Assembly: GCA_013349325.1 (NCBI GenBank)
Contig: DUZX01000004.1
Coordinates: forward strand, 62,001-126,000
Reading direction: 5' to 3'
Length of the DNA stretch: 64,000 nucleotides
DNA from: Desulfuromonadales bacterium
GTDB taxonomy: Bacteria > Desulfobacterota > Desulfuromonadia > Geobacterales > Pseudopelobacteraceae
Part shown: positions 42,116 through 60,845 of the stretch, one piece after another
Position numbering within the stretch: position 1 is the stretch's first letter
Layout of the letters: every line of letters begins with the position of its first letter
Made by a program: the position numbers and the translations under genes
The notes under the pieces: model-generated
What the model was told of the DNA's origin: nothing
The model's database searches: none
The model's input: only the letters and a program-made list of their open reading frames with translations

Positions 42116-44641
42116 TCATTTAGTAACCCGGGCGACAATTGCCGGCAGCGTTATCATTGCAAAGATGGCCGTACAGCCGACACCGAAGTTGGTCGCCCAG
42201 CCGATGGAGGCCAGCGCCGGATAATCAGCCAGCGCCAGCGAGCCGAAACCGGCTATTGTTGTCAGTGCCGACAACAGCACGGCGCGACCAGCCTGGACGA
42301 AACGCTGCTCCTGTTCCTGCAGAGTTACCTCGGCGATGCGGTGGCGGATATGCAGACCGTAATCACTCCCCATGCCGATGATGGTTACCAGCACCATGGC
42401 GTTCATAAAATTGAGCCCCATGCCGCTCATTGCCATGATACCGAGCATCGCCAGTGAACCGGCAACGACCGGAAAGAGTGCATAAAATATCCCTGCCAGA
42501 GAATTAAAATGCGCCAGCAGCAGAAACAGTACCACAACGCTACCCAGCACAACGGCCCAGACAAAACCACTGCGAACAGCAGCTGACAGCTGCTCGCTGA
42601 TCAGATCGACACTGCTGGCCCGGGCGGCAGGATCAATGGCAGCCAGTTCAGAGATAAAAACCGGCAGATTAAATTCCGGGCCGCGATAATGCAGATAAAC
42701 CAGGGCGTGCCAACCGGCAGCGTCCTTGATCAGGTGCCGGTCCAGAACACCTTTTAATGGCGATGCAGCCAGACCGGCCAGCGCTTCGCTACTGGAGAGC
42801 AGCGGCGCGTGTTTCATGGTTTCAGCCACCAGAAGATAGTCATTGAACGGCTCGCGGGTGAAACCGTGACGTTCCAGAGCAGCACTCAGACTGATGGCCA
42901 GATCTCCATTTTTTACGACACGACCAAGTGCCGCAATGACCGCACCCTGCATGGCTGGGCTATTGATGATCCGGCCGATCGATGACCAGGCTACGACCTT
43001 GCCTTGCTGCTGCAGACCTTCTGCAACCCTTTCAACACGGGCTGTCCGCTCCAGCACCTGATTCAGGTCACTCCCTTCGATCGCAACCAACATCTGTTTG
43101 GGTGCCAGACTGAGATGCTTTTCAATCTTCTCCTGCGCAAGAAAGGCCTCTGAATGGCGCGGTTGCAGGTTTTTAAGCTCACCGTCAAACTGAATCCGCA
43201 GCGCCTTCACCCCCAGCACAATGACCACAAACACCGAGATCATGATCACCACAACACTCCTACCGGTTGCAAAGCGCCACAGCCTGCCTAGTCCAAAACC
43301 GGGCACCGCCCGATAATCGGCCGGAAAATGTCGCTCCATGAAGATCAGGAGCGGCGGCAAAAAGAAGAGCGTTGCGTAGAGCGAAAAGATTACCCCCAGA
43401 CCGACCAGCAGACCCAGTTCTGACAGTGCCCGAACATCAGAGATCGAGAGTGCCAGAAAAGGGAGCGCAGTTGTAATTGCGGCCGTAAAGACGCCATGTC
43501 CGCTATCAACCAGCGCCAGATGCAGCGCATCAGCGGTGGCAACACCGGCGGCCCTCTCACTGTGAAAACGATCGTAGAGGTGAATCGAGTAATCGGTCCC
43601 CAGTCCGATAATCAGCGCCATGAACGCAAACGAGATGATATGGATCGAGCCGCTGAACAGCCCGGCAGTGGCGAGCGCCAGCGTTACGCCGCAGATCAGG
43701 ATCAGCGGTATCAGCAGCGTCGGCAGAATGCGGCGATAGGTCGCGTAAAATATCCCCAGTACCACAACCAGCGAGGAGAGAATGCAGGCCAGGATATTTG
43801 ATTTCATGGCCGCTTCATCCAGCACGGCACTGATATGAGCACCGGCACAGGAAATCTTCAGCGGGAGATCACGGCGGGCCAGGTTGATAGCCGCCACAAG
43901 CTTGCGTGCAAAGGCCATATCCTGAACGCTACGGGCCGGTTCGGCGATCATGACCAACAGACTGCCGTCACGCGAGATGAAATATGAGGAATCCGGATCA
44001 AGGTCGAGTGCCTGACTTCCGCTTTTGATGCGCGGCAGTATCAGCTCGCGTACGAAAAGCGGATCGACCGTGGCCAGACCGGTCATGGCACCACCGATCT
44101 GACCGGCCAACTCCGACTGCAGACGGAGCAGCAGACTATCCAGACGCGTGGCAGAAAAACGGGCCGCCAGATCAGGTACATCGGTCACGTTGATAAAGAG
44201 CTGCGGGCGGGCCACGGCAAATTTAATAAACTCACGAAATGCAGCGGCCTGGCTTTGATCGTAGATCTGCCAGGTGATACGAGTGAAGGCCGGTGTACCA
44301 TCGACCTGCGCTCTTCGCAGTCGTTCGGCAAAACGAGCCGCTTCCTGCGGCAGAAGCCGGGTGTCACCTTCCAACAGAAAGTAGGCCTCTTTGGCGCTGC
44401 CGGTCCACTGCATGGTATCAAGCATCAGGCGCAACGCCGGAAGACGTTTTGGAAAGAGTTGGAAGATATCGCTGTCAAAGCGGGTGGAAAGTAATGAGAG
44501 ACCGGAGAGCAGGATGGCCACAACAAAGAGCAGCACGACCTGCAGCGGGCGGGTCGTTGTTATCCGGAAAATCCATTCCAGATGGCGCTGCGTGAGCGAA
44601 TTGACCCTCGTCGAGGCGGCGTTGAACCAGTTTTTTGACAT
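42116..44641 (-). CDS. MMPL/RND family exporter
   Basis: The 841-residue inner-membrane protein has two RND-like halves, each with a large periplasmic loop and five or six helices. The family motifs are GLGTDYSIHLYDRF in the first half and GMGSDYGLHIRHRI in the second. In aryl polyene loci a protein of this kind (ApeM) is thought to export the finished lipid; the next genes upstream (lipoprotein, LolA-like) are the usual companions. It is the last core gene of the 42-61 kb locus. No tripartite partner genes are nearby. Confidence 0.88.
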   Translation of the reverse strand: MSKNWFNAASTRVNSLTQRHLEWIFRITTTRPLQVVLLFVVAILLSGLSLLSTRFDSDIFQLFPKRLPALRLMLDTMQWTGSAKEAYFLLEGDTRLLPQEAARFAERLRRAQVDGTPAFTRITWQIYDQSQAAAFREFIKFAVARPQLFINVTDVPDLAARFSATRLDSLLLRLQSELAGQIGGAMTGLATVDPLFVRELILPRIKSGSQALDLDPDSSYFISRDGSLLVMIAEPARSVQDMAFARKLVAAINLARRDLPLKISCAGAHISAVLDEAAMKSNILACILSSLVVVLGIFYATYRRILPTLLIPLILICGVTLALATAGLFSGSIHIISFAFMALIIGLGTDYSIHLYDRFHSERAAGVATADALHLALVDSGHGVFTAAITTALPFLALSISDVRALSELGLLVGLGVIFSLYATLFFLPPLLIFMERHFPADYRAVPGFGLGRLWRFATGRSVVVIMISVFVVIVLGVKALRIQFDGELKNLQPRHSEAFLAQEKIEKHLSLAPKQMLVAIEGSDLNQVLERTARVERVAEGLQQQGKVVAWSSIGRIINSPAMQGAVIAALGRVVKNGDLAISLSAALERHGFTREPFNDYLLVAETMKHAPLLSSSEALAGLAASPLKGVLDRHLIKDAAGWHALVYLHYRGPEFNLPVFISELAAIDPAARASSVDLISEQLSAAVRSGFVWAVVLGSVVVLFLLLAHFNSLAGIFYALFPVVAGSLAMLGIMAMSGMGLNFMNAMVLVTIIGMGSDYGLHIRHRIAEVTLQEQEQRFVQAGRAVLLSALTTIAGFGSLALADYPALASIGWATNFGVGCTAIFAMITLPAIVARVTK

Positions 44642-44647
44642 CGGTAG

Positions 44648-45337
44648 CTATAAACCCTTTATTTCGGAGAGCGGCAGGACCTTCAGCCCATCCAGCAGCG
44701 GCAGAAATGCGGCTTCTTCCAACGCAGTATTTACCTCCGGCTCAGCCAGCAGCAGCCGGATCTGATCGTTTGTGCTGCTGCGCAAATCGATCTCGGCCGC
44801 CAGTGGAATTCCGTTGATGGCAGTATACCCGGAGTAGTAGACCTGATCGCCGACACCATTTTTCTTGGTCGTAATCAGTCCCTGTTCGTAGCTAACGGTT
44901 TCCTGACTCCCATCAGAAGCAAGTCGCACAAGCGTCGTATTCAAGCGATTGTCAGGAGAGGGCGCTGCATCCATGATCCAGCGCATCATGCGCCACCCCC
45001 GTAGGCCGCCGCTGGTAGGCAATTCATCAATCGTACCGACGTAAGCGACAGACTTTCCGGGATAGAGCAGTGTAATCAGCTCGCCACGGGCAAATACCTC
45101 CATCAGCGTCGTTCCGAAGGGAGAGAGCACGACCAGGTGCAGCTGATCAGGTCGGCGATACACCAGAAAACCGCTGGCCGACATACCGGTTTCAGCCGTT
45201 GTGATCGAGATTGAAACCGCAGCCGAGAGAGTTTCCAGCGCCAGTGCCGGATTGTACGTGAGCGGCGGCAGAGCAGCAGCACAGGCCGACAACAGCAGCA
45301 GAGGAAGGCATATTTTCAGGAAGCGTAGCAGGAACAT
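44648..45337 (-). CDS. Outer-membrane lipoprotein, DUF3261/LolB-like
   Basis: The 229-residue protein starts MFLLRFLKICLPLLLLSACA; the lipobox LLSAC puts the lipidated cysteine at residue 19. The beta-rich remainder (QLHLVVLSPFGTTLMEVFAR, YSGYTAINGIPLAAEIDLRS) fits LolB/DUF3261 proteins. In aryl polyene loci such a lipoprotein receives the product at the outer membrane. It lies six bases before the MMPL gene. Function by analogy only. Confidence 0.75.
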   Translation of the reverse strand: MFLLRFLKICLPLLLLSACAAALPPLTYNPALALETLSAAVSISITTAETGMSASGFLVYRRPDQLHLVVLSPFGTTLMEVFARGELITLLYPGKSVAYVGTIDELPTSGGLRGWRMMRWIMDAAPSPDNRLNTTLVRLASDGSQETVSYEQGLITTKKNGVGDQVYYSGYTAINGIPLAAEIDLRSSTNDQIRLLLAEPEVNTALEEAAFLPLLDGLKVLPLSEIKGL

Positions 45338-45363
45338 TTTTTTCTCACCGAATAAGGGATATT

Positions 45364-45437
45364 ATTTTCCGTTCGCCCTGAGCTTGTCGAAGGGGGCAGC
45401 CGTTCATGGTTCGACAAGCTCACCACGAACGGAAAAT
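45364..45437. repeat. 28-bp inverted repeat with CTTGTCGAA ends
   Basis: ATTTTCCGTTCGCCCTGAGC plus TTGTCGAA (45364-45391) pairs with TTCGACAAGCTCACCACGAA plus CGGAAAAT (45410-45437), with only two mismatched bases. It can fold as one long hairpin. Similar TTCGACAAGCTCA palindromes occur in many bacterial genomes. Confidence 0.8.
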
Positions 45438-45447
45438 ATAATTGTAG

Positions 45448-45472
45448 GTCGCGTTAGTCTTTTCAACGCGAC
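45448..45472. repeat. Small perfect palindrome GTCGCGTT/AACGCGAC
   Basis: An 8-bp perfect stem with a nine-base loop lies just right of the long inverted repeat. No T-run follows, so it is unlikely to be a simple terminator. It resembles TAGGTCGCGTTAG-type dispersed palindromes. Confidence 0.5.
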
Positions 45473-45489
45473 ATTGCTCTGTTGCGTTA

Positions 45490-45726
45490 CTACGTATTCG
45501 GGACATCTTCACATGCACTAAACTCGCTATTAACCTTCATGCTTTCCATGCGCACTTTCAGACTGGTTTCCATAAGCCGCGTTCTACGTTGCTGAGCGGC
45601 TACCGTCATATTCATCTGTTCAAGCGCTTTACGAACATATTCGGCACGGGAAAGGTGTAACTGCCGGGCATAATCGTCAACGTCGTGAAGGATCTCGTCA
45701 AGAATTCGCAACGATAATGAAGCCAT
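45490..45726 (-). CDS. Orphan ribbon-helix-helix protein
   Basis: The 78-residue protein (MASLSLRILDEILHDVDDYA start) has an RHH pattern: a short strand, two helices with LSRAEYVRKALEQM, and a charged tail. No toxin gene follows. The stretch before the ATG at 45726 contains GAGGTTACATC. It sits between two repeat families inside the biosynthetic locus and separates the lolA-like gene from the lipoprotein gene. It may be an unpaired antitoxin or a local regulator. Confidence 0.65.
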   Translation of the reverse strand: MASLSLRILDEILHDVDDYARQLHLSRAEYVRKALEQMNMTVAAQQRRTRLMETSLKVRMESMKVNSEFSACEDVPNT

Positions 45727-45764
45727 GATGTAACCTCGTTGGGAACTAAATATGTAGTACCTAA

Positions 45765-45930
45765 ATCCTGCAAACCCTACCACAGAGTCACTGAGGGCAC
45801 AGAGAAAATTCTTAATAAAAAGACATTGGCCTTAGAATCTACTTTGTTTTACCGTTCACCTTCGGGGTGATACGCTCTTTTTTAAATAATCAATGATTCC
45901 TCTGTGTTCTCTGTGACACTGTGGTGGAAG
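45765..45930. repeat. MITE-like repeat, copy A
   Basis: 166 bp beginning ATCCTGCAAACCCTACCACA and ending GTGGTGGAAG. Its ends are imperfect inverted repeats (CCACAGAGTCAC...GGGCACAGAG versus CTCTGTGTTCTCTGTGACAC). The same left end, middle (TTAGAATCT) and right end (ATCAATGATTCCTCTGTG) recur in copy B at 52820-53167. Confidence 0.8.
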
Positions 45931-45989
45931 TACCGTTTTTGGTAGTACAAAATGAAAACTACTGCACATGTGTCAATTGCATTGCTCGC

Positions 45990-46754
45990 TCACTCTATCG
46001 GAACAAGCTGGAAATCCGTATCAGTCAGCCCGATGTTGCGGCGCAGGTTTTTAAAGGTCATGGTGGCCTTGTCGCCGTTCTGCTCCAGTATGGCCAGACG
46101 CCGGATGGTGCCGTCTTTCAAGAAGGTGATCATCACCTCTTTTATCTGCCCCTTAACCTGACCGGAACTGAGTGGCCTGATAACCAACGTGTAGATGTTG
46201 TGGGTCAGATCAGCCTGAATATCAATACCTTCCGGCAGCCGGGTGACCGGCGTGGCCAGTTTTGCAAACCAGCGTCCGAGGCCCTGATCAGGCGGCAGGA
46301 TAATCCTGTTTGGAACTCCGCCCTGTCCGGCCAGCTGCTGAAGCTGGGTATCCTTCAGCACCATGCGACTTGAGTACGGAGGATTAAGTGCCATAAAAAA
46401 CTGATCCGGTTTTTTGAAACGCACCGTCCCGCTCATGGTCATTGTGCGTCGCATAAGTGCGAGTTTTTTTTCCTGTGTTATTTCAGCACTGAAATCAGAA
46501 ATGCCGGCAAATCCGGCCCGCAGCGCCTCCAAACCGTCCAGCGCGGCAATCGGACGGGCCTCGGCGAATGCAGGTAGAAGCCACAAAAAAGACAAACACA
46601 AAAAACTGAACAAAATATTTGAACCACAGAGCAACAGAGCAACTGAGGTACATGCATGTCGGGTTTCGTGAAAAAGAATATTTTGTCTGAACGTTTTTGA
46701 CGTCTCTGTTGCACTGGCGCTCTCTGTTTCAGTAACTAAATTTCTTAACCTCAT
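45990..46754 (-). CDS. LolA-like outer-membrane lipoprotein carrier, with repeat-derived N-terminus
   Basis: The C-terminal 190 residues show the LolA pattern: FSAEITQEKKLALMRRTMTM, SGTVRFKKPDQFFMALNPPY and LVIRPLSSGQVKGQIKEVMI. Such carriers cross the periplasm; in aryl polyene loci this is ApeL. The ATG at 46754 overlaps the dehydratase stop (ATGA), which supports it as the original start. After MRLRN come about 42 residues with no likeness to LolA, encoded by a dispersed repeat, and only then the signal-peptide core LFSFLCLSFLWLLPAFAEA. Removing that stretch gives a normal signal peptide. Export may be impaired, or a later TTG start at 46613 may be used. Confidence 0.78.
   Translation of the reverse strand: MRLRNLVTETESASATETSKTFRQNILFHETRHACTSVALLLCGSNILFSFLCLSFLWLLPAFAEARPIAALDGLEALRAGFAGISDFSAEITQEKKLALMRRTMTMSGTVRFKKPDQFFMALNPPYSSRMVLKDTQLQQLAGQGGVPNRIILPPDQGLGRWFAKLATPVTRLPEGIDIQADLTHNIYTLVIRPLSSGQVKGQIKEVMITFLKDGTIRRLAILEQNGDKATMTFKNLRRNIGLTDTDFQLVPIE
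46618..46733. repeat. Dispersed repeat inserted within the lolA-like gene
   Basis: The plus strand reads TTGAACCACAGAGCAACAGA then GCAACTGAG at its left end, and its right end (CTCTGTTGCA...CTCTCTGTTTCAG) is a loose inverted counterpart. The left end matches the nested element of copy B (52966-53107). The length keeps the lolA frame open. Exact ends are estimates. Confidence 0.6.
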
Positions 46755-47134
46755 AACTTCCCCACTCCCAGCGTCAGCTGTACCGTCAACAATGTTCGTC
46801 CTTCACAACAGACTTCCCCCGCGACCATGAACAGCCTCCCGAATGATTTGATCACCCGCGCGGAAATAGTGAGCATATCACCAACCTGTGGGGTTCCGGA
46901 GAACTCGGCCCTGTCAATGGAGGCCAGAAAGCCACCCTCCCCTTCGGTCGTGATCGTCAGAATGCCGGATAGTTGGGCAACCGACTCTACTAACAACATC
47001 TGGGCGACTCCATACGACGATGAAACCGCGCGGAGTGCGGTCGCCTGGATACCGTCTTCAAGGGCAATGATCCGATCCAGCAGCAGGAACGGATAGCGAT
47101 GCGGCAGGTATGTAGCGGGATCAGGGTTGAACAG
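46751..47134 (-). CDS. Hotdog-fold 3-hydroxyacyl-ACP dehydratase (FabZ/ApeP-like)
   Basis: The protein core begins YLPHRYPFLLLDRIIALEDG, with the catalytic His, and has the Glu in LLVESVAQLSGIL; these are the FabZ/FabA residues. The start is unclear. CTG at 47134 has GGAGG five bases before it and gives 127 residues; the only other in-frame candidate is GTG at 47245, inside the CLF-like gene. It would remove water from 3-hydroxyacyl-ACP in each extension cycle. Its stop overlaps the lolA-like start. Confidence 0.82.
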   Translation of the reverse strand: MFNPDPATYLPHRYPFLLLDRIIALEDGIQATALRAVSSSYGVAQMLLVESVAQLSGILTITTEGEGGFLASIDRAEFSGTPQVGDMLTISARVIKSFGRLFMVAGEVCCEGRTLLTVQLTLGVGKL

Positions 47135-48170
47135 ACGCGCCTCCGCGAAAACGGATGGCGTAGTAGGGCCCTTCCGGAGAAGCGGCCAGATGCAGACCCT
47201 GCTGACCGGCAGGCAGGGAGGCCAGCAGAAACGCCATGGCAACACCCCCCATAGCCAGGCTGCGACCGATCAGCGGAGCAATGTCAAGAGTAGGAACGTC
47301 CGGTAACTGTTGCATTAACTGCGGGTCAAGGGCTGTCGTCCCGGAAAGCGAGAGCAGATCGCAGCCTTCAGATCCCTCCAGCAATCTGCAAAATCCCTCC
47401 GTTTCACTCCCCTTCAGCAGCAGGCCGAGCGTACTGATATGTTCAAGAGTCGCACGTGGTACAACGCCACGCCGGGCGGCATGAGCGGCACTCTCCAGCA
47501 CCAGCATACCGCTCCCCTCACCAAAGGAGGATGCGTAGCGACGCAACTGCCCGGTAGCAGCGAAGCCGGTTATCATCTGCGGCGTCAGGTCATCGGCGCC
47601 ACCGGTCAGCATGATATCGGCCCGCCCCTCCTGGATACAGCGGCAGGCCATCATGAAGGCCGCTTCGGCCGAGCAGAAGCGTTGAATCAAGGTGACGTTG
47701 GGCCCTTTCAGACCATGTTCAATGGAGGCATTACTGGCGGGGGCATTGGAGACAACATTTGGAAACAGCATCGGATTGAGGCCGTTGACGCCATCCTTGA
47801 AGTAACCGGACAGAAAATCAACCGAATTGGCGATACCGCCGAACCCGCAGCCCAAAATGATACCGATCCGCTCGGGCGGCATATCAGCCACCACCACTCC
47901 GGCATCCTGCAGGGCCAGAGCACTGGCCGCCACGGCAAACTGACTGCAGCGATCCAGCTTGCGCGCCTTCAAGGGGGGCATATAGTCGGCAATTTTGAAC
48001 GAAAGTGCCCTGCCCCAGCGCTGCCCCGCACCACCAGGGATATCGGCGGGTACGGCCGAGAGAGCATCGCCGCCGTTGTGCAGCACATCCAGCAACGGCA
48101 GAACGCCGATACCGGCGGCAGTCACGGCCGCATACCCGCTGATAACAATATCATTCGACATGCGTGTCAT
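47121..48170 (-). CDS. Chain-length-factor-like ketosynthase
   Basis: The 349-residue protein has a thiolase-fold ketosynthase body (CGFGGIANSVDFLSGYF; TLIQRFCSAEAAFMMACRCI). The nucleophile position still has Cys166, but both catalytic histidines are replaced: the VNAHGTGT stretch reads LSLSGTTALD, and the GHxxGAAG stretch reads IGRSLAMGG. That pattern marks a non-catalytic partner (CLF/KS-beta), as ApeC is in aryl polyene systems. ATG at 48170 overlaps the stop of the active ketosynthase gene (ATGA), as expected for a heterodimer made in equal amounts. Confidence 0.82.
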   Translation of the reverse strand: MTRMSNDIVISGYAAVTAAGIGVLPLLDVLHNGGDALSAVPADIPGGAGQRWGRALSFKIADYMPPLKARKLDRCSQFAVAASALALQDAGVVVADMPPERIGIILGCGFGGIANSVDFLSGYFKDGVNGLNPMLFPNVVSNAPASNASIEHGLKGPNVTLIQRFCSAEAAFMMACRCIQEGRADIMLTGGADDLTPQMITGFAATGQLRRYASSFGEGSGMLVLESAAHAARRGVVPRATLEHISTLGLLLKGSETEGFCRLLEGSEGCDLLSLSGTTALDPQLMQQLPDVPTLDIAPLIGRSLAMGGVAMAFLLASLPAGQQGLHLAASPEGPYYAIRFRGGASVQP

Positions 48171-49399
48171 ACCCCCAGCACCAGAGAGGTAATATTGCCC
48201 CCAAAGGCAAATGAATTCGAGAGCGCCACCGTCGCGGCGCAGGCACGAGGAGCGGCGTGACAGTACTCCAGATCGCATTCCGGATCGCGCCCCCGGAAGT
48301 TGAGCGTCTGCGGAATAATACGCAGGTTCAACGCCAGTATGGTTGCCAGCGCCTCAACCGCCCCGGCCGCCCCCAGACAATGCCCGGTCAGAGCCTTGGT
48401 GGAAATCAGCGGCACCCCGGCGACCTGTTCACCGAAAACCTGCTTGACGGCCTGTGATTCAATACCGTCATTGAGTGGTGTCCCGGTTCCATGGGCATTT
48501 ACCCAACCAACCTGATCATTCTGCACCCCGGCCGAAGCGATGGCGGCCTGCATGACGCGGGCAGCCGTGGATCCGCTCGACTCGGGCGCTGTCATATGGT
48601 AGGCCTCGCCTGCCAGGGCATACCCGAGGATATATCCGTACAGCTGGGCCCCGCGTGCCAGGGCGTCATCTTCGCGCTCCAGCACCATAAACGCGGCCCC
48701 TTCACCCAGCGAGATTCCCTGACGACCAAGACTGAAGGGGGAGCAGGGGCAAGGATCGACGACTTTTAATGCATTAAACCCACAAAACGTCAGCAGCGAG
48801 AGCGTATCGACACCGCCGACCAGCATCGCCTTCTGTTGTCCGCCGGCAACCAGGTCGGCGCCCCAGCCGACAGCGGTCGCCGAAGAGGAGCAGGCGGTGG
48901 TGATGGTTCCCTGATAACCGGCCAGACCGAAGCGCAGGGCGATTTCTGTGGCGCTCTTGTCCGGCAGCAGACCGCGCAGCAGGACCGGTTCGCTCTTCTC
49001 TCCGGCCAGGTGCGACTTCAGCCACTGTTCACTTTGGAACATGCCCCCCGCTCCACCCCCGATTGAAACACCGATATCATAGGGGGAATAGAAAGTCGCA
49101 GCACCACTGGCATCGAGAGCCTCACCAGCTGCAATCAACCCGAACTGGTCAGCACGCGAGAGTTTGCGAATGGCACGGCGATCGAAATAATTCAGCGGGT
49201 CATAGCCTTTCACCTGACAGCCGATGTGAGAGGGGAAATCCGACGTATCAAACAGGTCAAGCGTTCCGATCGCGCTCGTATTTCCGGACAGCGCCTGACG
49301 GAACGATGCTACGTTCGTGGCGGCTCCGCAGAAAATACCAAGGCCGGTTATGGCAACCCGTTGTCTCTTGTCAGACGGAATGTTCGTCAGGGCATTCAT
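48167..49399 (-). CDS. Beta-ketoacyl-ACP synthase, catalytic subunit (FabF-like)
   Basis: The 410-residue enzyme has a full Cys-His-His triad: Cys170 in TITTACSSSATAVG, His303 in VNAHGTGTPLNDG and His340 in ALTGHCLGAAGAVEA. It condenses acyl-ACP with malonyl-ACP. Its start shares one base with the FabG-like stop (TGATG), and its stop overlaps the CLF-like gene, so FabG, KS and CLF should be translated as a block. A chain maker for a lipid or polyene is likely. Confidence 0.92.
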   Translation of the reverse strand: MNALTNIPSDKRQRVAITGLGIFCGAATNVASFRQALSGNTSAIGTLDLFDTSDFPSHIGCQVKGYDPLNYFDRRAIRKLSRADQFGLIAAGEALDASGAATFYSPYDIGVSIGGGAGGMFQSEQWLKSHLAGEKSEPVLLRGLLPDKSATEIALRFGLAGYQGTITTACSSSATAVGWGADLVAGGQQKAMLVGGVDTLSLLTFCGFNALKVVDPCPCSPFSLGRQGISLGEGAAFMVLEREDDALARGAQLYGYILGYALAGEAYHMTAPESSGSTAARVMQAAIASAGVQNDQVGWVNAHGTGTPLNDGIESQAVKQVFGEQVAGVPLISTKALTGHCLGAAGAVEALATILALNLRIIPQTLNFRGRDPECDLEYCHAAPRACAATVALSNSFAFGGNITSLVLGV

Positions 49400-53188: not shown

Positions 53189-54463
53189 CTACTTACGGCG
53201 CAGCGCAGCCCGGAACCCGAAATTCATCGGGGCAAAAACCTGTAGAGAGCGATGGAGCTTGAAGAGACGCCGATACATGGAGGGGAGCGAATAAAAACTG
53301 TTGTTCAGCCAGTTGTAGCCTTCCTGCAGCTGTTCAACCGTCATGCCGATCGGCCGGAAATTGACATGCTCCATGTCATAATCCTGCCAGTTATTGGAGA
53401 TGATTCTTCCTTCGGCTTCCAGGCGCTGCCGCACGGCAGTACCGGGATAGGGGGTCAGCAGCGGGAAAATGGCGGATTCAAGGCGGGCATCCTCGCAGAA
53501 GCGCAGCAGCGGTTCGAAAATCGCCGGGGTATCGCCGTCGTAGCCAAGTACAAATGACCCCAGGATGCCGATACCGTTATCATGAAAGGATTTGGCATAA
53601 TCACGATAGGAGGAGGCCAGGTTGGTGACCTTGCCCATGGCGGTCAACGCCTCCTGATTGAGCGATTCAAAGCCGACAAACATGCCGTAACAGCCGGACT
53701 CACCGGCAGCTTTCATCAGTTCGGTATCGGCGGCAAAATCAATCGGAGAGTGCGAGAGCCACTTGAAATCCATCCCTTTCATACCGGTAAACAGCTCCAG
53801 GGCATACTTTCGATCGGCCACCAGATTGTCATCAACAAAAAAGATGAATGAATTAGATTTTCGGAGCTGGACCAGCTCCTCGAGGATATTTTTTATCGGC
53901 CGTTTGCGGTATTTACGGCCATAAAAAGCGGTTACCGAGCAGAACTCACAATCAAAGGGGCAACCGCGCGTCGTCTGGATCGTGTTGCTCAACAGGTAGC
54001 GCTTGCCTTTAAAAATTTCACGACGAGCGGTTGGAATGACATCCATCGGCATCTGCTCACGGGATTGATAACGAGGCAGAAGCTGTTTACGGTGAAAATC
54101 CTGCAGCAGCTGCGGCCAGGCCAGCTCGCCCTCCCCCACCACAACGGCATCGACATGCGTCAGTGCTTCATCCGGCAGATTGCTGGCATGGAAACCGCCC
54201 ATTACGACCGTTTTTCCTCGGCGACGGAACTCATCTGCAATCCGGTAGGCGCGCGGTGCCTGGGGAGTCATGGCGGTCAGGGCAATGATATCAGCGTCAC
54301 AGGAATAATTGATCTTTTCAAAATTATCATCCAACAGCTCAACGTCCCACTCAGGCGGGGTCACCGCTGCCAGGGCTGCCAATGACAAAGTCGGAAATTT
54401 AAAGGCCAGCTCACCCCATAATCGTCCCTTTTCCCAACCGGGAGCGATGAAGAGAATTTTCAT
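53189..54463 (-). CDS. B12-binding-domain radical SAM enzyme, no. 2
   Basis: The 424-residue protein opens MKILFIAPGWEKGRLWGELA, then FPTLSLAALAAVTPPEWDVE, a cobalamin-binding Rossmann pattern, with VVMGGFHASNLPDEALTHVD. The radical SAM core carries CPFDCEFC (Cys168, 172, 175). The build (B12 domain, rSAM, C-terminal helical domain) is that of HpnJ/HpnP-like enzymes of lipid chemistry. It overlaps the ACP gene by four bases, a strong hint that the ACP-bound chain is its substrate. It is a clear paralogue of enzyme no. 3. Confidence 0.87.
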   Translation of the reverse strand: MKILFIAPGWEKGRLWGELAFKFPTLSLAALAAVTPPEWDVELLDDNFEKINYSCDADIIALTAMTPQAPRAYRIADEFRRRGKTVVMGGFHASNLPDEALTHVDAVVVGEGELAWPQLLQDFHRKQLLPRYQSREQMPMDVIPTARREIFKGKRYLLSNTIQTTRGCPFDCEFCSVTAFYGRKYRKRPIKNILEELVQLRKSNSFIFFVDDNLVADRKYALELFTGMKGMDFKWLSHSPIDFAADTELMKAAGESGCYGMFVGFESLNQEALTAMGKVTNLASSYRDYAKSFHDNGIGILGSFVLGYDGDTPAIFEPLLRFCEDARLESAIFPLLTPYPGTAVRQRLEAEGRIISNNWQDYDMEHVNFRPIGMTVEQLQEGYNWLNNSFYSLPSMYRRLFKLHRSLQVFAPMNFGFRAALRRK

Positions 54464-54717
54464 TGTGCATGTTCTGCAATATAGCCGGCCATACTGCGAA
54501 CCGAGGCAAATACCACCGTCCCGGTAGCCGCGTCCGGCACGACTACGCCGAACTCTTTCTCCATAGCCACCACCAGCTGTAGTGCATCGATTGAATCCAG
54601 ACCCAAACCGTCACCAAACAGCGGCGCATCGGTGTCAATTTCATCAGCCGACATCCCCTCGATACGCAGGCTGTCAATAATCATCTGTTTTACCTTTGAA
54701 ATCAGCTCTTCTGACAT
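54460..54717 (-). CDS. Acyl carrier protein
   Basis: The 85-residue acidic protein (MSEELISKVKQMIIDSLRIE start) has the phosphopantetheine site GLGLDSIDALQLV with Ser42. DSI replaces the DSL of housekeeping AcpP, which is common in dedicated ACPs. GAGAGG stands before the ATG. The gene lies between the LpxL-like acyltransferase and radical SAM no. 2, sharing ATGA with the latter. It is the only ACP gene in the locus. Confidence 0.92.
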   Translation of the reverse strand: MSEELISKVKQMIIDSLRIEGMSADEIDTDAPLFGDGLGLDSIDALQLVVAMEKEFGVVVPDAATGTVVFASVRSMAGYIAEHAQ

Positions 54718-54739
54718 ATAAAACCTCTCGTAAAAACGA

Positions 54740-55624
54740 TTATTTTTCTTTTGTACCCCAATAATCAAATAAATTGAACCATTGGTCCGGATACGCCTTG
54801 ATGTACTGTTCAAAAACGGCCGCCAGGCGCTGCATGCCGCTGCGGATCGACTGACTGTGCTGGCCATGCCCACCGGTGATGTAGATGGCTTCATCCATCA
54901 GCGTCGAATAGCGGCCATTTTCCAGAGGTACGAAAACCGGGATGATCGGCGCGCCGCTGGCCAGGGCCAGATAGGCGGCTCCCACCGGAAACGAGGTCGG
55001 CCGACCGAAAAAATCTAGTTCGATACTATGTGACGAACCGTCCCGTTCTCCCAGCAGACAGATAATTTCGTTGCGTCGCAGGGCATTGACCGCTTCGATG
55101 ATCGCCAGCGGAGAGCTATCCTCACGATCAACGTAGATGATGCCGATGCCCCGTTCGCCACGCACCTTTTCCCGCAAGTCGTTGACCTTCTGATCCGGTT
55201 CGCGAAAGGTCAGCATGTTGATCGTATAACCCAGATCAGCCAGCCCCAGACCGCCCAGTTCCCAATTGCCGAGATGAGCGGAAACCAGAATCGCACCGTT
55301 ACCGGCTGCCAGGGCCTGATCAAGCGCTGCACTGCTGCTGCGCCTTCCGATCAGAGCCTGTAGCTGCCTGCCCCGCAGCCGGATCATCAGCATCACGTCA
55401 CACCAGTTCTGGCTGAACAGGATGAACGTGGAAAAAACCAGTCGCTCCACTTTTTTCCTGCTGGTGACAACCTGAAGATTGGCACGCACCCCCCGCCGGG
55501 TTTCTGTCAGCAGCAGATAGAACAGGCCACCCCAGAAAAAAGCAGCCGGGGGAAACAGTCGGCGCGGCACCAGCATAGTAAAAAGTTTGATAAAGAACAG
55601 ATTGAGATTACTGTAAAATTTCAA
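54740..55624 (-). CDS. LpxL/HtrB-like acyltransferase
   Basis: The 294-residue protein has an N-terminal hydrophobic anchor and the catalytic HxxxxE motif in VSAHLGNWELGGLGL, then LLGERDGSSHSIELDFFGRP and FPVGAAYLALASGAPIIPVF, as in lipid A secondary acyltransferases. Here it could attach the finished acyl chain from ACP to a lipid or glycolipid head (a part of the ApeJ role). Start appears to be TTG at 55624. It directly precedes the ACP gene. Confidence 0.85.
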   Translation of the reverse strand: MKFYSNLNLFFIKLFTMLVPRRLFPPAAFFWGGLFYLLLTETRRGVRANLQVVTSRKKVERLVFSTFILFSQNWCDVMLMIRLRGRQLQALIGRRSSSAALDQALAAGNGAILVSAHLGNWELGGLGLADLGYTINMLTFREPDQKVNDLREKVRGERGIGIIYVDREDSSPLAIIEAVNALRRNEIICLLGERDGSSHSIELDFFGRPTSFPVGAAYLALASGAPIIPVFVPLENGRYSTLMDEAIYITGGHGQHSQSIRSGMQRLAAVFEQYIKAYPDQWFNLFDYWGTKEK

Positions 55625-55663
55625 CGAATGTATCCGTATTTTAAATAGTTATAAACAGTTATT

Positions 55664-57043
55664 TTACGCTTTACTTCCACGTTTAGCCACGGTTCGCGGC
55701 AGTTCTTTAAATTCCTCTTCCCAGGCCGGATCGGCGATCTCGGAATAGGCTTTAGCGTAGTCATCCATACTGTCGGCCAAACCGGTAAAGATCTCGTCAG
55801 CTCCGGCGTGCGTCGCATGGGCACCTTCCGAGGCGAACAGTTCCCGACCGGCTTGCGGTTGGTCGATCAGCATGCAGGGGCGCAGCAGGTTTTCATGCTC
55901 GCCCTGCTTTGCGCGGATTTTGCTGAAAAAGGGTGAGGCCAACGCCTGATGGATGCTGCTGGTGCGGATGTTGTCGACGGCAAAGTGGCAGAAAACGCAC
56001 GGTTCGATGTCGCCGTTGGCGTTGATGTGAAAGTATTTGCGACCGCCGGCCAGGCAGCCGGAGATCATCGGGCCGTCGTTCCAGAAATCGATGAAGAGCA
56101 TCGGTTTATTGGCGCGATAGTCGGCTACGGTGCGGCGCAGTTCGTCGCGCTGTTCGGGGGTCGGCATCAGGTCGACTTCGGGTTTGCGGCCGACCGGGAC
56201 GTAGGAGAAGAGCCACATGGCAAAGACACCTTTTTTGACGAGCATGTCGATGTAGTCGCCGTTGGTGATGATGGCAGAGTTCTTGCGCGAGTGGGTAAAG
56301 GAGCCACAAAAGGAGAGTCCACCGGCTTTCATGAGGTCCATGGCGTGCATGACTTTCTCAAAATGACCGGCGCCGCGCCGTTCGTCAGTCTCCTTTTGGT
56401 AACCTTCCAGTGAGAAGGCGGGCATGACGTTGCCGACGTCGGTCAGCTTTTGTACCATCTGCTCGTCAATCAGGCCGCCATGCGTGAAGACCAGGAAGGC
56501 CATGTCGCTGTGCTTTGTGAATATCTCGAAGATGCCTTCCATATAAAAGGGTTCGCCGCCGGAGATGACGGCAAAGTAGACCCCCATCTCTTTCATCTGC
56601 ATCAGGATCGAGTCGACTTCAGCGAGGGAGAGTTCCAGTGATTTGTCGTAGTCACCAGCGTAGCAGCCGTAGCAGCTCAGGTTGCAGCGCATGGTCGGAC
56701 TGATAACGACGGTCGAGGGGGGATAGTAGCCGTGCGTGTCACTCCACTCTTTACGTGTGTTGGTGCCGTTTAAGAGGTGATTGACGAGCAGGTTGCTGAT
56801 CCATTTGTCACGCTGGTTGGGATGCAGGTCGCGCAGTATCCGGCGCGGGAATTCGATGCCGGGGTGTTTGTCGCGCACCAGACCGCGAATCCAGCGGATA
56901 CGCTCCTTGTAATAATCCTTCTTGGGAATCATCTCCATCAGGTGCGTCATCTTGATGAGGGTTTCATCGGATGAACTGGTCGCCAGTGAGAGCAGGTAGG
57001 AAAGTACTTTTTCTTTGGTGTAGGTTTTAAGCGATTGCAGCAT
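55664..57043 (-). CDS. Radical SAM protein with C-terminal cysteine-rich (SPASM-like) region
   Basis: The 459-residue protein has CNLSCYGC (Cys120, 124, 127) in VVISPTMRCNLSCYGCYAGD and VISGGEPF, the standard AdoMet radical core. The C-terminal part holds further cysteines (GCLAGG, EPCVFCHFAV, RPCML) that may bind an auxiliary cluster. It lacks a B12 domain. GGAG precedes the ATG. The N-terminal 100 residues are helical and unassigned. Its place between the glycosyltransferase and acyltransferase genes suggests work on the lipid head or chain; HpnH-like chemistry is one option. Confidence 0.85.
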   Translation of the reverse strand: MLQSLKTYTKEKVLSYLLSLATSSSDETLIKMTHLMEMIPKKDYYKERIRWIRGLVRDKHPGIEFPRRILRDLHPNQRDKWISNLLVNHLLNGTNTRKEWSDTHGYYPPSTVVISPTMRCNLSCYGCYAGDYDKSLELSLAEVDSILMQMKEMGVYFAVISGGEPFYMEGIFEIFTKHSDMAFLVFTHGGLIDEQMVQKLTDVGNVMPAFSLEGYQKETDERRGAGHFEKVMHAMDLMKAGGLSFCGSFTHSRKNSAIITNGDYIDMLVKKGVFAMWLFSYVPVGRKPEVDLMPTPEQRDELRRTVADYRANKPMLFIDFWNDGPMISGCLAGGRKYFHINANGDIEPCVFCHFAVDNIRTSSIHQALASPFFSKIRAKQGEHENLLRPCMLIDQPQAGRELFASEGAHATHAGADEIFTGLADSMDDYAKAYSEIADPAWEEEFKELPRTVAKRGSKA

Positions 57044-57053
57044 GATATCTCCG

Positions 57054-57716
57054 TCACATATAGCGTAAAAAAGTCATACTGATACGAAACGTATCTTTCA
57101 CCGGCTGATAATGGCTGGTGGCACGACCATCGGCAACCCGGGCGGCAATCGGCAGAGAACCGATTGTAAAGCCGCTCTTCCAGGCTTTCAACATAACTTC
57201 CATCTCCAGAGCATAGCCGTCCGACGTTAATGAGACACGCTGCAGCAGCTCCTTTGTATAGTAACGAAAACCGGATTGACTGTCGGTAATTTCGAAACCG
57301 GTCCGTTTCCAGATACACCAGACGCCAAAGCGATTCCAGAACTTGCGCAGTCCGGCCATCTGAATAAACTGGGTGTGGCGGGAGGCAATCAAAAGATCCC
57401 ACGTTCCGCGCTGCGCAGCGGCAATTAACCGGGGAATCGCCGACACATCGTGCTGTCCATCGGCATCGATTGAGACCACCGCATCAAAGCCGGCCTCGAT
57501 CACCCAGACAAAACCGGTTTTCAGTGCGGCACCTTTGCCACGGTTGTGCGGATGCCGGAGCAGCGTGAGTGGCATGTCTGACACGAGAGCTGCAGTACCA
57601 TCAATGGACCCGTCATCTACGACAACCAGTGGCAGGCCCTGTTCAAGACATTCACGGACCACGGGCACAATCGTTTTTTCAGCATTATACGCTGGAATCA
57701 GGATACAGACTGCCAC
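57054..57716 (-). CDS. Family 2 glycosyltransferase (dolichyl-phosphate mannose synthase-like)
   Basis: The protein has the GT-A start VCILIPAYNAEKTIVPVV, VVVDDGSIDGTAALV, and VSIDADGQHD with the metal-binding acids, then SGFRYYTKELLQ. GTG at 57716 puts the start at the family position; an ATG at 57746 adds ten residues. It overlaps the deacetylase gene. Such enzymes move a sugar to a polyprenyl phosphate or lipid acceptor. In this locus it could glycosylate the lipid product. Confidence 0.85.
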   Translation of the reverse strand: MAVCILIPAYNAEKTIVPVVRECLEQGLPLVVVDDGSIDGTAALVSDMPLTLLRHPHNRGKGAALKTGFVWVIEAGFDAVVSIDADGQHDVSAIPRLIAAAQRGTWDLLIASRHTQFIQMAGLRKFWNRFGVWCIWKRTGFEITDSQSGFRYYTKELLQRVSLTSDGYALEMEVMLKAWKSGFTIGSLPIAARVADGRATSHYQPVKDTFRISMTFLRYM

Positions 57717-58513
57717 TCTTCCACCAGTTCCTTGAGGGTCACACATTGATAGCGACGAAGCAGCTCGACCAGTCGCGGTGCCGCATCGTTTCTAGATCCA
57801 TATGACGCAAATCTTTTCACGATCGGCAGCTCGAGCCGGGGACCATCAGGGTCCAGCTCACGCGGGTGAAGATAGATAACTGCCGGATGTCCGCTGTCGT
57901 TAAGCGTGTCAATACTGCTGCAGATCATCCGCAGCGGAAAAAACCGAAAACCCCAGCCGCCACCGCTTGGCAGATTACCAAACCGTGATTTGGTAACCAG
58001 TGGCGGGAACTCCCAGAGACCTTCGCCTTCAGCGCCCAGGCGGTAGGGGATGCGACTGCCGCGCGGATTGCCAACCAATGGCAACGGATTTAGACTGGAA
58101 TCGTAGCGGTAACCTGAATCTTTTAAAATAGCGAACGCCCAGCCTCTCAGCTCCGATAAAGACCATTGCGGAGCCCGGTAACCGATCGGTTTCTGTCCGG
58201 TCTGCTCGAACAGGATCCGCTCGGTTGCCAGTAACTCATCACGAAACTGCTGCGCAGTCATGCCAGACACCAGACGGTGTGAATAGCCGTGGGAGGCGAG
58301 TTCATGACCAGCCGAACAGATCATGGCAGCCAAGGACGGATCACTTTCCGCTACGGATCCGAGCATAAAAAAAGTCGCTTTCTGAGAATATCCGTCAAGC
58401 AGTGCCAGAATTTTTTCGATATTTTGCCGCACACGCCAGGTTTCACGTGGCAGAATCAGCGTGTCACGCCCTGTACCGCACACATGAAACCAATCCTCTA
58501 CATCAACTGTCAA
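57698..58513 (-). CDS. Polysaccharide deacetylase (DUF3473-type)
   Basis: The 271-residue protein opens with TVDVEDWFHVCG, the metal-binding Asp motif of the family, then KATFFMLGSVAE, HELASHGYSHRLV (zinc HxxxH), YRAPQWSL and YLHPRELDPDGPRLELP. No ATG is available: TTG at 58513 or CTG at 58528 (GGAG upstream) may start it. It removes N- or O-acetyl groups from sugars. Its overlap with the glycosyltransferase suggests that the added sugar is then deacetylated. Confidence 0.83.
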   Translation of the reverse strand: MTVDVEDWFHVCGTGRDTLILPRETWRVRQNIEKILALLDGYSQKATFFMLGSVAESDPSLAAMICSAGHELASHGYSHRLVSGMTAQQFRDELLATERILFEQTGQKPIGYRAPQWSLSELRGWAFAILKDSGYRYDSSLNPLPLVGNPRGSRIPYRLGAEGEGLWEFPPLVTKSRFGNLPSGGGWGFRFFPLRMICSSIDTLNDSGHPAVIYLHPRELDPDGPRLELPIVKRFASYGSRNDAAPRLVELLRRYQCVTLKELVEEWQSVS

Positions 58514-58630
58514 AATCAGCTGTTTCAGTCGAGGCGCTCCGATACCTGACGTTTAAATTGTGAAGAGTACATAACAAATCATATCAAGTCAATATTCCCG
58601 TCCAGATTCATCAGGATATCGTTGAAATTG

Positions 58631-59932
58631 TTACAGCGAAGGCAAACGGTCATTAGGACCTTTACGCAGCAGGTTGTAGGCCAGATTAGTGAAGCGCCGC
58701 CCGGGATTGTTCCAGACACGCGAGAGGATGGAGGGTATCGTATAGGCCGTCTTACGCGCTTCCAGCCAGCCACGGTAGAGTTGCTCGGGAGTCATCAAGA
58801 GCGGCTTGAAGACGACCTCCGAGTGGTTGTAACGACTCCAGTCCTGATGCAGGAGTCGCCCCTCCTGCAGGTATTGCTGAAAAAGTTTAGTTCCGGGATA
58901 CGGGGTCAGGATATTGAAGGTCGGAACACTCGGAACGCACTCCTCGACGAAACGGAGCGTCTTTTCAAAGATGCTCTGATCATGATCATCAAAGCCGAAG
59001 ATCAGCGACGTTTCAAGGATTATCCCGGCACCCCGGACACGTTTCATGAGCTCGGCCTGTGGTGATTTTCCCGACGATTTTGACAGCTGCGAGTAGTTTC
59101 CCGTGACAGATTCAATGCCGACGAACAGACCGATACAACCGGAGCGGGCGACCAGTTTGAGCAGTTCCCGGTCCTCTGCAAAGCGTAGACTGGTTTGCGA
59201 CCCCCAGCGGATGCCCATTTCAGCCATCCCTTCCAGTATCGGCCGCGCCTTGGCGGGGTCTCCCAGCAGATTATCATCCAGAAAAATAACCAGCTTTCGC
59301 GGAAAAGAGCGAATTTCAGCCAGAATGTCGGCCGCTTCCCGGTAGCGAAAACGATTACCAAAATAGTGCGTGACTGTACAAAAATCGCAATCGTAGGGAC
59401 AGCCGCGACTGGCCTGGACCGTCTGGGTCGTCAGATAACGTTTACCGCTCAGGATCTCACGACGCGGCCTGGGAATGTCGAGCCGGTCATCCTGTGCTAT
59501 CGGAGCACGGTATATCTTCTGCAGTCTGCCACCCAGAAAGTCTTTAAGGAGTTGTCCCAGAATAGGTTCCGCTTCGCCGATAACAACCGCATCGGCGTGT
59601 GTCAGCGCCTCCTCCGGCATCACCGTCGGGTGCATGCCCCCCATAATAACCGGCACTCCGTTACGTCTGAACTGATCCGCTATTTCGTAGGCCCGCATCG
59701 CCTGATGCGTCATGGCGGTGATACCGACCAGATCATAGCCTCTGCCATCAGGGATTGAGTCCTGACTTTCATCGACGAGCGTAACCTGCCAGTGAGCGGG
59801 AGTTACTGCGGCAACCTGCTGAAGGGAGAGCGACGGCAATTGGAAATATTTGACCCAGCCGAGTTTGTGCGTTGCCGGATAAATCAGTAGAAGTCGTGGG
59901 ACTATTCGTCGATTGAGGGCATCAGTCCGCAT
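58631..59932 (-). CDS. B12-binding-domain radical SAM enzyme, no. 3
   Basis: The 433-residue protein (start MRTDALNRRIVPRLLLIYPA) has the B12 Rossmann part with QLPSLSLQQVAAVTPAHWQV and VIMGGMHPTVMPEEALTHAD, then the radical SAM core with CPYDCDFC (Cys178, 182, 185). It resembles enzyme no. 2 over its whole length, so the two are probably duplicates with divided roles. The ATG at 59932 lies 11 bases inside the Cas6-like gene, so their translation is coupled. Confidence 0.87.
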   Translation of the reverse strand: MRTDALNRRIVPRLLLIYPATHKLGWVKYFQLPSLSLQQVAAVTPAHWQVTLVDESQDSIPDGRGYDLVGITAMTHQAMRAYEIADQFRRNGVPVIMGGMHPTVMPEEALTHADAVVIGEAEPILGQLLKDFLGGRLQKIYRAPIAQDDRLDIPRPRREILSGKRYLTTQTVQASRGCPYDCDFCTVTHYFGNRFRYREAADILAEIRSFPRKLVIFLDDNLLGDPAKARPILEGMAEMGIRWGSQTSLRFAEDRELLKLVARSGCIGLFVGIESVTGNYSQLSKSSGKSPQAELMKRVRGAGIILETSLIFGFDDHDQSIFEKTLRFVEECVPSVPTFNILTPYPGTKLFQQYLQEGRLLHQDWSRYNHSEVVFKPLLMTPEQLYRGWLEARKTAYTIPSILSRVWNNPGRRFTNLAYNLLRKGPNDRLPSL

Positions 59933-60845
59933 ACGCCCCACCAGATGCAATCAGCTCATAACGTCCCATACCGAATGCCGCTCCTTTTCCGGCATTACAA
60001 TACGACCCGAGAGCCAAAAAGGGGAGCAGACCACTGAAGTTTCCGAAAAAAGTACCATATCCGCTGACTCCACTCATACGTTTATTTCCGCCGGACAGAG
60101 TTTCGTAGCGGAAATGATCGTCCGTACAGATTATTTCATCGCACTGTTGTGACAGTGATTTAAAGCCATACTCGAACTCATGTTCACCATAATAGTACGC
60201 CAAAGACGAAACACGCCGCAGAAGCGAGCGGGTAAAAAGCTGGAAATCGAATTTTTTCATATACCTCCCATCACGTCGTAACGTGAGAGGAAAACCGAGG
60301 CGAATGTCAACCTGGGAGCACTCCCATGGTTGACATTCCATGATGGCAGCAGCAGATAACACGACCAGATTTTCCATGGCGGAAACAGCGTTCAGTGCTT
60401 GAGGCACACCCTGATAATCCCGCGAAGTTCGTTCGAGAATGTGAAAACGCCCGTGACACTCATGCGAGCTCAGTACCGCATCAACACCATCAAGCAACAT
60501 GGCAAGTTGTGGGATTGCGCGACCGATAACCACCAGTCTGCACTCAATTTCCTGGCACTCCGGTTTATTATCACCGGTCGGAGAAAACGAAAAGACAAAC
60601 GGCAGGGAAGGTTTTTGATGACAGCGAAGCGCTTCCGGATCAGTTGAGAGCTCCTGACCAAAAACACGATACCAGGCACACGAGACTCGCGATGAACAAC
60701 AGGAACAGTCGCGAGTAGTCCAGCGACAGACACTTGCCCGACAGACAGATGAAAATTCGCGGACAAACAGAGCTATCAGTTCAGCGATAGCGGTATTTGT
60801 GTCACTTCTGATCCGGAGAGAGAGATCAACAAGATTGAAATCCAT
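59922..60845 (-). CDS. Cas6-like RAMP protein (CRISPR pre-crRNA endoribonuclease family)
   Basis: The 307-residue protein shows the usual Cas6 layout: an N-terminal half with a Cys-rich stretch (CSCCSSRVSCAWYRVFG) followed by KPSLPFVFSFSP, a middle with KKFDFQLFTRSLLRRVSSLA, and a glycine-rich C-terminal loop (LPFLALGSYCNAGKGAAFGM then GRYEL) as in RAMP domains. Cas6 cuts CRISPR transcripts. No CRISPR array or other cas gene is in this window. The ATG at 60845 follows AGAGGAAG; it is the first gene of the locus and overlaps radical SAM no. 3. It may work elsewhere in the genome or have a new substrate. Confidence 0.75.
   Translation of the reverse strand: MDFNLVDLSLRIRSDTNTAIAELIALFVREFSSVCRASVCRWTTRDCSCCSSRVSCAWYRVFGQELSTDPEALRCHQKPSLPFVFSFSPTGDNKPECQEIECRLVVIGRAIPQLAMLLDGVDAVLSSHECHGRFHILERTSRDYQGVPQALNAVSAMENLVVLSAAAIMECQPWECSQVDIRLGFPLTLRRDGRYMKKFDFQLFTRSLLRRVSSLAYYYGEHEFEYGFKSLSQQCDEIICTDDHFRYETLSGGNKRMSGVSGYGTFFGNFSGLLPFLALGSYCNAGKGAAFGMGRYELIASGGAYAD

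Follow-up and report, generated by a model that had tools for sequence, protein, structure and literature searches.

A conserved lipid gene cassette in Geobacterales

The stretch analyzed here (the window) comprises 64,000 nucleotides of contig DUZX01000004.1 (positions 62,001 to 126,000, assembly GCA_013349325.1) from a Desulfuromonadales bacterium of the Geobacterales. Its minus strand carries, from 59950 to 42116, a run of 17 lipid-type genes, many of which overlap or sit a few bases apart. This run is a real, conserved and uncharacterised lipid pathway, a variant of the outer-membrane lipid type that relies on a ketosynthase (KS) and a chain-length factor (CLF). With confidence slightly above even, we propose that KS/CLF make an acyl chain that becomes C-methylated and is carried on an exported outer-membrane glycolipid. 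The analysis establishes gene families, catalytic motifs, conservation of the cassette and the predicted fold of one radical SAM enzyme (rSAM1), whereas every reaction and the product are inferred.

Families were assigned with Pfam and NCBIfam, and motifs were checked separately in the sequence. Percent identities to Ape proteins come from blastp against 17 aryl polyene (APE) proteins of E. coli CFT073. The genes, all on the minus strand, are:

42116-44641, minus: MMPL/RND lipid exporter, HpnN-like (PF03176, 113 bits; TIGR03480, 191 bits, below the cut-off of 752; 22% to ApeM)
44648-45337, minus: LolB-like outer-membrane lipoprotein (PF03550, 36 bits)
45990-46754, minus: LolA-like periplasmic carrier (PF03548, 52 bits; flexirubin LolA2, 54 bits, below cut-off)
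46751-47152, minus: FabZ-like dehydratase (DH; NF000582, 58 bits, below cut-off; His and Glu motifs; the open reading frame (ORF) opens at 47245, start inferred)
47121-48170, minus: CLF (PF00109, 82 bits; no match to the C-terminal KS domain; ORF opens at 48278, start inferred)
48167-49399, minus: KS with Cys-His-His (PF00109, PF02801; FabF, 360 bits, below the cut-off of 494)
49399-50139, minus: FabG-like ketoreductase (KR; PF13561, 204 bits; TIGR01830, 256 bits, below cut-off)
50164-51543, minus: B12-binding radical SAM enzyme 1 (rSAM1), predicted TsrM-like, core (TIGR04072, 399 bits, above the cut-off of 360)
51540-51962, minus: 4HBT/YbgC-type thioesterase (TE; PF13279, 50 bits; 27% to ApeK; Asp and His-Gly motif)
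51959-52798, minus: MdcH/FabD-like acyltransferase (AT; PF00698, 61 bits; TIGR03131, 127 bits, below cut-off; HSMG serine motif)
53189-54463, minus: B12-binding radical SAM enzyme 2 (rSAM2), core (PF04055, PF02310, PF13282)
54460-54720, minus: dedicated acyl carrier protein (ACP; PF00550, 43 bits; 44% to ApeE; DSI motif; start inferred)
54740-55624, minus: LpxL-like acyltransferase (PF03279, 103 bits; HX4E motif)
55664-57043, minus: SPASM radical SAM enzyme, core (PF04055, PF13186)
57054-57746, minus: family 2 glycosyltransferase (GT2; PF00535; AglJ, 90 bits, and PpgS, 87 bits, both below cut-off)
57698-58513, minus: polysaccharide deacetylase, XrtA-system-like (PF01522, PF11959; TIGR03006, 210 bits, below the cut-off of 276; TVDVED and SHGYSH motifs)
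58631-59950, minus: B12-binding radical SAM enzyme 3 (rSAM3), accessory (PF02310, PF04055)

Every gene class named in a first-pass annotation of this DNA, including three B12-binding and one SPASM radical SAM enzymes, was thus recovered on this strand with the expected family; its unspecified lipoprotein proved to be LolB-like. All four radical SAM proteins carry a CxxxCxxC motif. The KS retains the E. coli FabF residues C163, H303, K335 and H340, and the CLF has F, G, A and R at these positions. The KR contains YxxxK, with a glycine motif seen by eye, and no enoyl reductase is present among the genes of the run. A housekeeping FabF (682 bits, above cut-off) lies elsewhere in this genome (99.96% complete, 72 contigs), and the run therefore represents a second, dedicated system.

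The gene set and order of the window recurred in 15 of 20 stretches from relatives, hand-chosen from TIGR04072 matches in the window's genome and those of 57 relatives (58 genomes). Three others (L038, L039, L057) held another cluster type and two (L055, L056) had radical SAM matches only. A wider set of 80 named contigs was fetched through rSAM1 (best 80 of 362), whose presence there is therefore by construction. These contigs belong to Geobacter, Geotalea, Oryzomonas, Trichlorobacter, Pelotalea and Geomonas, and to Syntrophaceae and other deltaproteobacterial bins at 50-54% identity. The deacetylase and LolA both matched within the stretch in 35 of the 80 loci (spanning loci), and in 34 of these 35 the following 14 genes lie on a single strand in the same order: Deac-GT2-SPASM-LpxL-ACP-rSAM2-AT-TE-rSAM1-KR-KS-CLF-DH-LolA. 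The single spanning locus short of this set, L095, lacks rSAM2. As the order recurs in other genera, the arrangement is not due to chance. LolA, the LolB-like gene and MMPL were matched in 35, 26 and 25 of the 35 spanning loci; many stretches are truncated on this side. By eye, inserts between cassette genes in L062, L063 and L085 contain no ammonia lyase or ligase and look like unrelated genes.

The first-pass annotation described a locus built around four radical SAM enzymes. All four are present, but among relatives rSAM1, rSAM2 and the SPASM enzyme form the constant set and the other B12-binding enzymes vary. Median identities across the spanning loci are 76% for SPASM (range 62-88%), 75% for rSAM2 and 66% for rSAM1, so that SPASM and rSAM2 are the most constant. 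B12-binding radical SAM frames numbered two in 17 spanning loci, three in 13 and four in five; this crude count took frames of 330 aa or longer between a point 3.5 kb before the deacetylase and LolA, and stretches cut at the edge may hide more. Both the presence and the position of rSAM3 vary, and in L105, L107, L110 and L117 its match lies beyond MMPL.

Of the 58 genomes, 34 have the CLF and 33 the SPASM enzyme, and the two agree in presence in 57; the exception is G001. The locus of that genome (L058) keeps rSAM2 to MMPL and has no match to SPASM, LpxL, ACP, GT2 or deacetylase between a Cas6-like gene and rSAM2, in a stretch free of N; partial deletion, replacement or assembly error are possible. 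In a class-level sample, CLF matched at 1e-40 in 71 of 226 genomes, all 71 from the window's order. In a phylum-level sample of 395 genomes, the seven CLF matches above 500 bits (own genome included) also came from this order; here only matches above 500 bits were used, as the profile at 1e-20 matches 380 of the 395 genomes and presumably also catches FabF-like KSs. CLF scan matches with stops inside probably reflect overlong starts in some rows of the alignment (A3). Syntrophaceae-type loci (L120-L136) keep rSAM2-rSAM1-KR and, in part, KS, TE, AT, ACP and LpxL, with SPASM in two; no CLF or DH match was found in them, some of the stretches being short.

A TsrM-like fold is predicted for rSAM1

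The AlphaFold2 model of rSAM1 (pLDDT 88.8) was compared with the PDB. Among Foldseek's 1000 best chains, the first match was TsrM, a cobalamin-dependent radical SAM tryptophan C2-methylase (6wte; Z 38.9, root-mean-square deviation 2.2, 445 aligned residues, 27% identity), which shares the whole predicted fold. AprD4 (Z 31.2), the methylase MgmA (30.7), OxsB (28.2) and CysS (28.0) followed. Arg68 of rSAM1 pairs with Arg69 of TsrM in a profile alignment and does not vary in either of two further alignments, A6 (29 of 29 rows) and A1 (12 of 12 rows), the latter including three ladderane-type proteins. In a three-row alignment, rSAM2 and rSAM3 have Thr in this column. In TsrM, Arg69 presumably leaves the lower face of cobalamin without a ligand, so that a methyl group can pass to an sp2 carbon by a non-radical route; if that holds, the growing chain would offer a natural target in its polyene or enol carbons. 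On this model, rSAM1 is probably a TsrM-like cobalamin methylase, although its substrate is presumably an acyl chain, unlike the tryptophan of TsrM. The first-pass annotation had suggested a carbon-branched or ring-bearing lipid; branching is possible and, going by the predicted fold, methyl branching is a more likely role of this enzyme than ring formation.

Proposed pathway and competing products

In the pathway we propose, the AT would load malonyl onto the dedicated ACP, KS/CLF would elongate the chain, and the KR and FabZ-like enzyme would process each unit. The chain probably keeps double bonds because the run has no enoyl reductase. The ACP-bound chain would be C-methylated by rSAM1, perhaps at alkene or enol carbons, with further modifications added by rSAM2 and the accessory B12-binding enzymes. 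The GT2 and deacetylase would build an aminosugar, as polyprenyl-phosphate N-acetylhexosamine (HexNAc) and then hexosamine, to which the LpxL-like enzyme would transfer the chain from the ACP. The SPASM enzyme would modify the sugar or lipid, and MMPL, LolA and the LolB-like protein would convey the product to the outer membrane.

The sugar steps are modelled on family resemblance. AglJ and PpgS, the families that GT2 resembles, are polyprenyl-phosphate HexNAc synthases, PpgS being the polyprenyl-phosphate GalNAc synthase family, and with the deacetylase this suggests an aminosugar lipid. The LpxL-like enzyme also resembles phosphatidylinositol-mannoside acyltransferase (116 bits, below cut-off). 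Taken with MMPL, LolA and the LolB-like protein, the GT2, LpxL-like enzyme and deacetylase suggest an aminosugar lipid that bears the special chain as an acyl group and is delivered to the outer membrane, as has been proposed for APE. The exported, glycosylated lipid foreseen by the first-pass annotation is in this respect supported as a probable exported glycolipid. The SPASM model (pLDDT 76.5) matched SkfB (Z 24.0) and SuiB (22.8), which are general folds of SPASM enzymes and of those acting on ribosomally synthesized and post-translationally modified peptides, and the lipid enzyme GDGT-MAS (18.0); these matches do not fix a substrate.

The same sugar genes could serve lipopolysaccharide (LPS), with the LpxL-like enzyme adding a special chain to lipid A and the GT2 and deacetylase adding an aminosugar. 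Membership of the LpxL family (PF03279) agrees with this reading, as would an aminosugar module formed by the other two enzymes. However, LPS is transported by the Lpt route, and the run's own LolA, LolB-like and MMPL genes argue for separate transport, so that we regard modification of lipid A as decidedly unlikely.

The chain could also be no polyene at all: a putative housekeeping enoyl reductase acting in trans might yield a special saturated fatty acid for membrane glycolipids, with methyl branches or some other modification. The run without an enoyl reductase and the separate FabF, which points to housekeeping fatty acid synthesis, fit this reading, as does a methylase-like rSAM1. However, KS/CLF pairs without a reductase of their own often yield polyenes, and we consider the saturated product unlikely.

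Several points weigh against the C-methylated glycolipid as proposed. The chain could end up saturated through a housekeeping enoyl reductase acting in trans. The fold of rSAM1 also strongly matches AprD4, which is annotated as a diol dehydratase, so that the model does not prove methyl transfer. The NCBIfam matches of AT, GT2, LpxL, KR and deacetylase all fall below curated cut-offs, which makes the sugar, acceptor and building block guesses. Finally, LolA and the LolB-like protein gave no blastp match to ApeL or ApeN.

Relation to aryl polyene loci

The run shares with APE loci the KS/CLF, KR, DH, TE, ACP, GT2, LpxL, LolA, LolB-like and MMPL layout, and likewise probably serves an outer-membrane lipid. 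By blastp, the window KS is 43% identical to ApeO over 255 residues, and KR, TE, ACP and MMPL match ApeQ, ApeK, ApeE and ApeM. GT2 matches ApeJ residues 8-229 (33%, 6e-26) and the LpxL-like enzyme residues 352-553 (27%, 2e-16); as aligned, the two are a split form of the fused ApeJ. The LolA, LolB-like and MMPL transport set corresponds to APE roles by Pfam, with MMPL alone matched by blastp. No window protein matched ApeH, ApeG, ApeB or ApeD by blastp, and the window CLF did not match ApeC at 0.01. APE has two KSs and the run one, lacking the second KS (ApeR) and a second DH. The run adds the AT, the deacetylase, three B12-binding radical SAM enzymes and one SPASM enzyme.

In a KS/CLF tree of 37 rows, the window KS grouped with Geobacterales KSs (100/100), then with Syntrophaceae (95/93), and then with a cousin KS from another Desulfobacterota family (100/99). 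ApeO, on a long branch (2.05), and ladderane-type KSs formed another group (85/92). Both groups fall in one wider clade that excludes FabF (90/96, below the starred level). Cousin CLFs were the neighbours of the geobacterial CLFs (92/91, likewise below that level), and ApeC (branch about 6) and the ladderane-type CLFs had very long branches and unsure placement. In a PDB sequence search, the nearest match to the KS was a FabF (270 bits), and chain 6qsp_A, which we take to be an APE KS, scored 163 bits; the best match to the CLF was 9s5h_B (90 bits). Searching E. coli genomes at the DNA level with the window KS yielded no match.

The absence of aryl starter genes noted in the first-pass annotation was borne out. 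No aromatic ammonia lyase (PF00221) was found in the genome at E 1e-10, where 5 of 14 control genomes give matches. Among the run's proteins, to which the ligase search was confined, there was no AMP-binding match at 0.01, and none matched ApeH by blastp. The available part of PMC8253772 proposes that the APE locus makes an outer-membrane lipid and states that APE of E. coli is made with 4-hydroxybenzoate, its locus having no lyase; the missing lyase therefore decides little alone. A true APE locus with its aryl starter supplied from elsewhere would account for the many common roles and for the wider clade that ApeO and the window KS form apart from FabF. We nevertheless hold this to be very unlikely, as it is opposed by the lack of lyase in the genome and of ligase in the run, by a KS that does not group with ApeO, by a CLF without a blastp match to ApeC, and by the missing second KS and DH. 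Judged by its sequences, with no ammonia lyase matched in the genome, no ligase among its own proteins and a KS on another branch, the run is not an aryl polyene locus. The first-pass description is thus supported as to an APE-like chassis devoid of aryl starter genes, and not as to the rebuilding of such a locus.

Relation to ladderane-type and cousin clusters

The window rSAM1 exceeds the cut-off of TIGR04072, named 'rSAM_ladder_B12'. Full-length TIGR04072 matches in the 58 genomes fell at three levels: 359-410 bits in 32 genomes, all with the cassette CLF; 617-686 bits (ladderane-type) in seven genomes and in G051, whose split gene is counted in; and about 285-340 bits in a lower group, some of them second copies, whose two inspected loci (L055, L056) had no cassette. 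The cassette genomes G006 and G011 had no match of the 359-410-bit level. By score, the window rSAM1 belongs to a lower-scoring subfamily than the ladderane-type proteins at 617-686 bits. Of the 58 genomes, 34 carry the cassette CLF, eight a ladderane-type locus and none both (Fisher p = 0.0004, or 0.001 without G051, uncorrected for kinship), and the two loci may specify alternative lipids.

The ladderane type is defined here by L038, L039 and L057 rather than by anammox sequences. Its TIGR04072 enzyme is about 36% identical to the window rSAM1 and its second B12-binding enzyme 32-33% identical to rSAM2; L038 also has KS, CLF, ACP, LpxL, TE, MMPL, LolA and DH matches to window genes. L038 is bordered by PagL-like and BtrH/DUF4872 genes. 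L039/L177 contains an aromatic ammonia lyase (417 bits), an AMP ligase and an amine-oxidase/phytoene-dehydrogenase-like gene. It has the features given in the accessible part of Rattray 2009 (PMC2649909), plus the lyase, which that part does not mention. No phytoene-dehydrogenase-like or phenylacetyl-CoA-ligase-like enzyme is present among the run's proteins, and the three amine-oxidase matches of the window's genome all lie on other contigs.

The same part of Rattray 2009 (PMC2649909) reports 'similar gene clusters' in members of Geobacter and in Pelobacter carbinolicus, proposes that the Kuenenia and Desulfotalea clusters may make polyunsaturated lipids, and states that Desulfotalea psychrophila contained no ladderanes. 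Its Table 2 lists Phe163 and Arg333 for the Geobacter sulfurreducens CLF NP_951518, and the window CLF residues fit this listing, compared by table entry. A 2023 survey (PMC9902471, as far as accessible) places 'ladderane' clusters of unknown role in many non-anammox phyla.

The run could thus be a ladderane or ladderane-precursor locus, with its B12-binding enzymes forming rings on a polyunsaturated chain. Such a role would agree with the TIGR04072 score and with Rattray's inclusion of Geobacter. However, we find it highly improbable. Rattray's accessible text reports no ladderanes in D. psychrophila, the run lacks the phytoene-dehydrogenase-like gene and ligase that a relative has in L039/L177, and its KS and CLF lie on other branches (the CLF branches being long). 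The TsrM-like model of rSAM1 also speaks against it, yet the arginine is common to the three ladderane-type proteins. As far as these sequence comparisons indicate, the run is not the ladderane-type locus. The ladderane link drawn in the first-pass annotation is supported by the reported similar clusters and by rSAM1, on which the tie mainly rests.

Extended to the whole family, TIGR04072 enzymes, which are suspected of forming ladderane rings, might be TsrM-like non-radical C-methylases acting on ACP-bound polyenes. Geobacterales would then make a new class of non-aryl, methyl-branched polyene aminosugar lipid of the outer membrane, and sister lineages would have in its place a lipid started by an ammonia lyase. 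We put this forward tentatively and think it rather unlikely in full.

Cousin clusters from other Desulfobacterota families (L151-L156) have the nearest CLFs and, in L153, the nearest KS. They share DH and LolA with the window, four have an rSAM2-like match (34-45%), and they differ in their extra KSs and the absence of rSAM1 and SPASM matches. They apparently represent another lipid type. By eye, L153, L155 and L156 include a membrane protein and two SAM-methyltransferase-like ORFs.

Significance and published record

Geobacterales are metal reducers and electrode-respiring bacteria. If the proposed pathway is correct, their outer membrane, the surface through which they pass electrons out, would bear a lipid not yet described. 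The predicted TsrM-like fold makes the choice between ring maker and methylase for rSAM1 accessible to a single assay. The cassette resembles the loci of aryl polyene pigments in layout and has one enzyme in common with the presumed ladderane pathway, and is a member of neither. We guessed GSU0459-0466 as locus tags from presumed numbering, and two such tags found in the literature concerned other matters. In the accessible parts of the literature, no product was found for the cassette beyond Rattray 2009 and the 'ladderane' calls of PMC9902471, and nothing on the run appeared in those of PMC5585712 (Geobacter Tn-seq), PMC3495685, PMC2700814, PMC6638757, PMC9484754, PMC10132072, PMC8041823 or PMC8253772.

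Boundaries and neighbouring genes

The first-pass annotation extended the run to 60845. Lipid genes reach 59950, and the last gene it counted (59922-60875) is Cas6-like (PF10040, 53 bits), an unrelated family beside frd/sdh genes at the upstream end, and was rejected as a member. The Cas6-like gene stands alone between frdB and the lipid run, and the cas1 matches of the genome are on other contigs. No CRISPR-like array was found in 58500-64000, where, as in 40000-46500, only two-copy families of 22-28 bases occur. In 13 of the 80 named loci, a Cas6-like match (31-44% identity) flanks the cassette at its deacetylase end, and nine of these loci also match frdB (L058, L059, L061, L062, L066, L091, L114, L118, L119).

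A small ORF between the LolB-like and LolA genes (45490-45783) has no Pfam match at 0.01 and is unlikely to be part of the lipid run. It looks ribbon-helix-helix-like by eye, and ORF 40239-40637, outside the run, looks PIN-like; the two are possible toxin-antitoxin remnants. Elsewhere in the genome, contigs C12 and C47 (L162, L163, L165) have KS matches in frames of 2375 and 1154 aa, possibly from a polyunsaturated-fatty-acid-synthase-like system.

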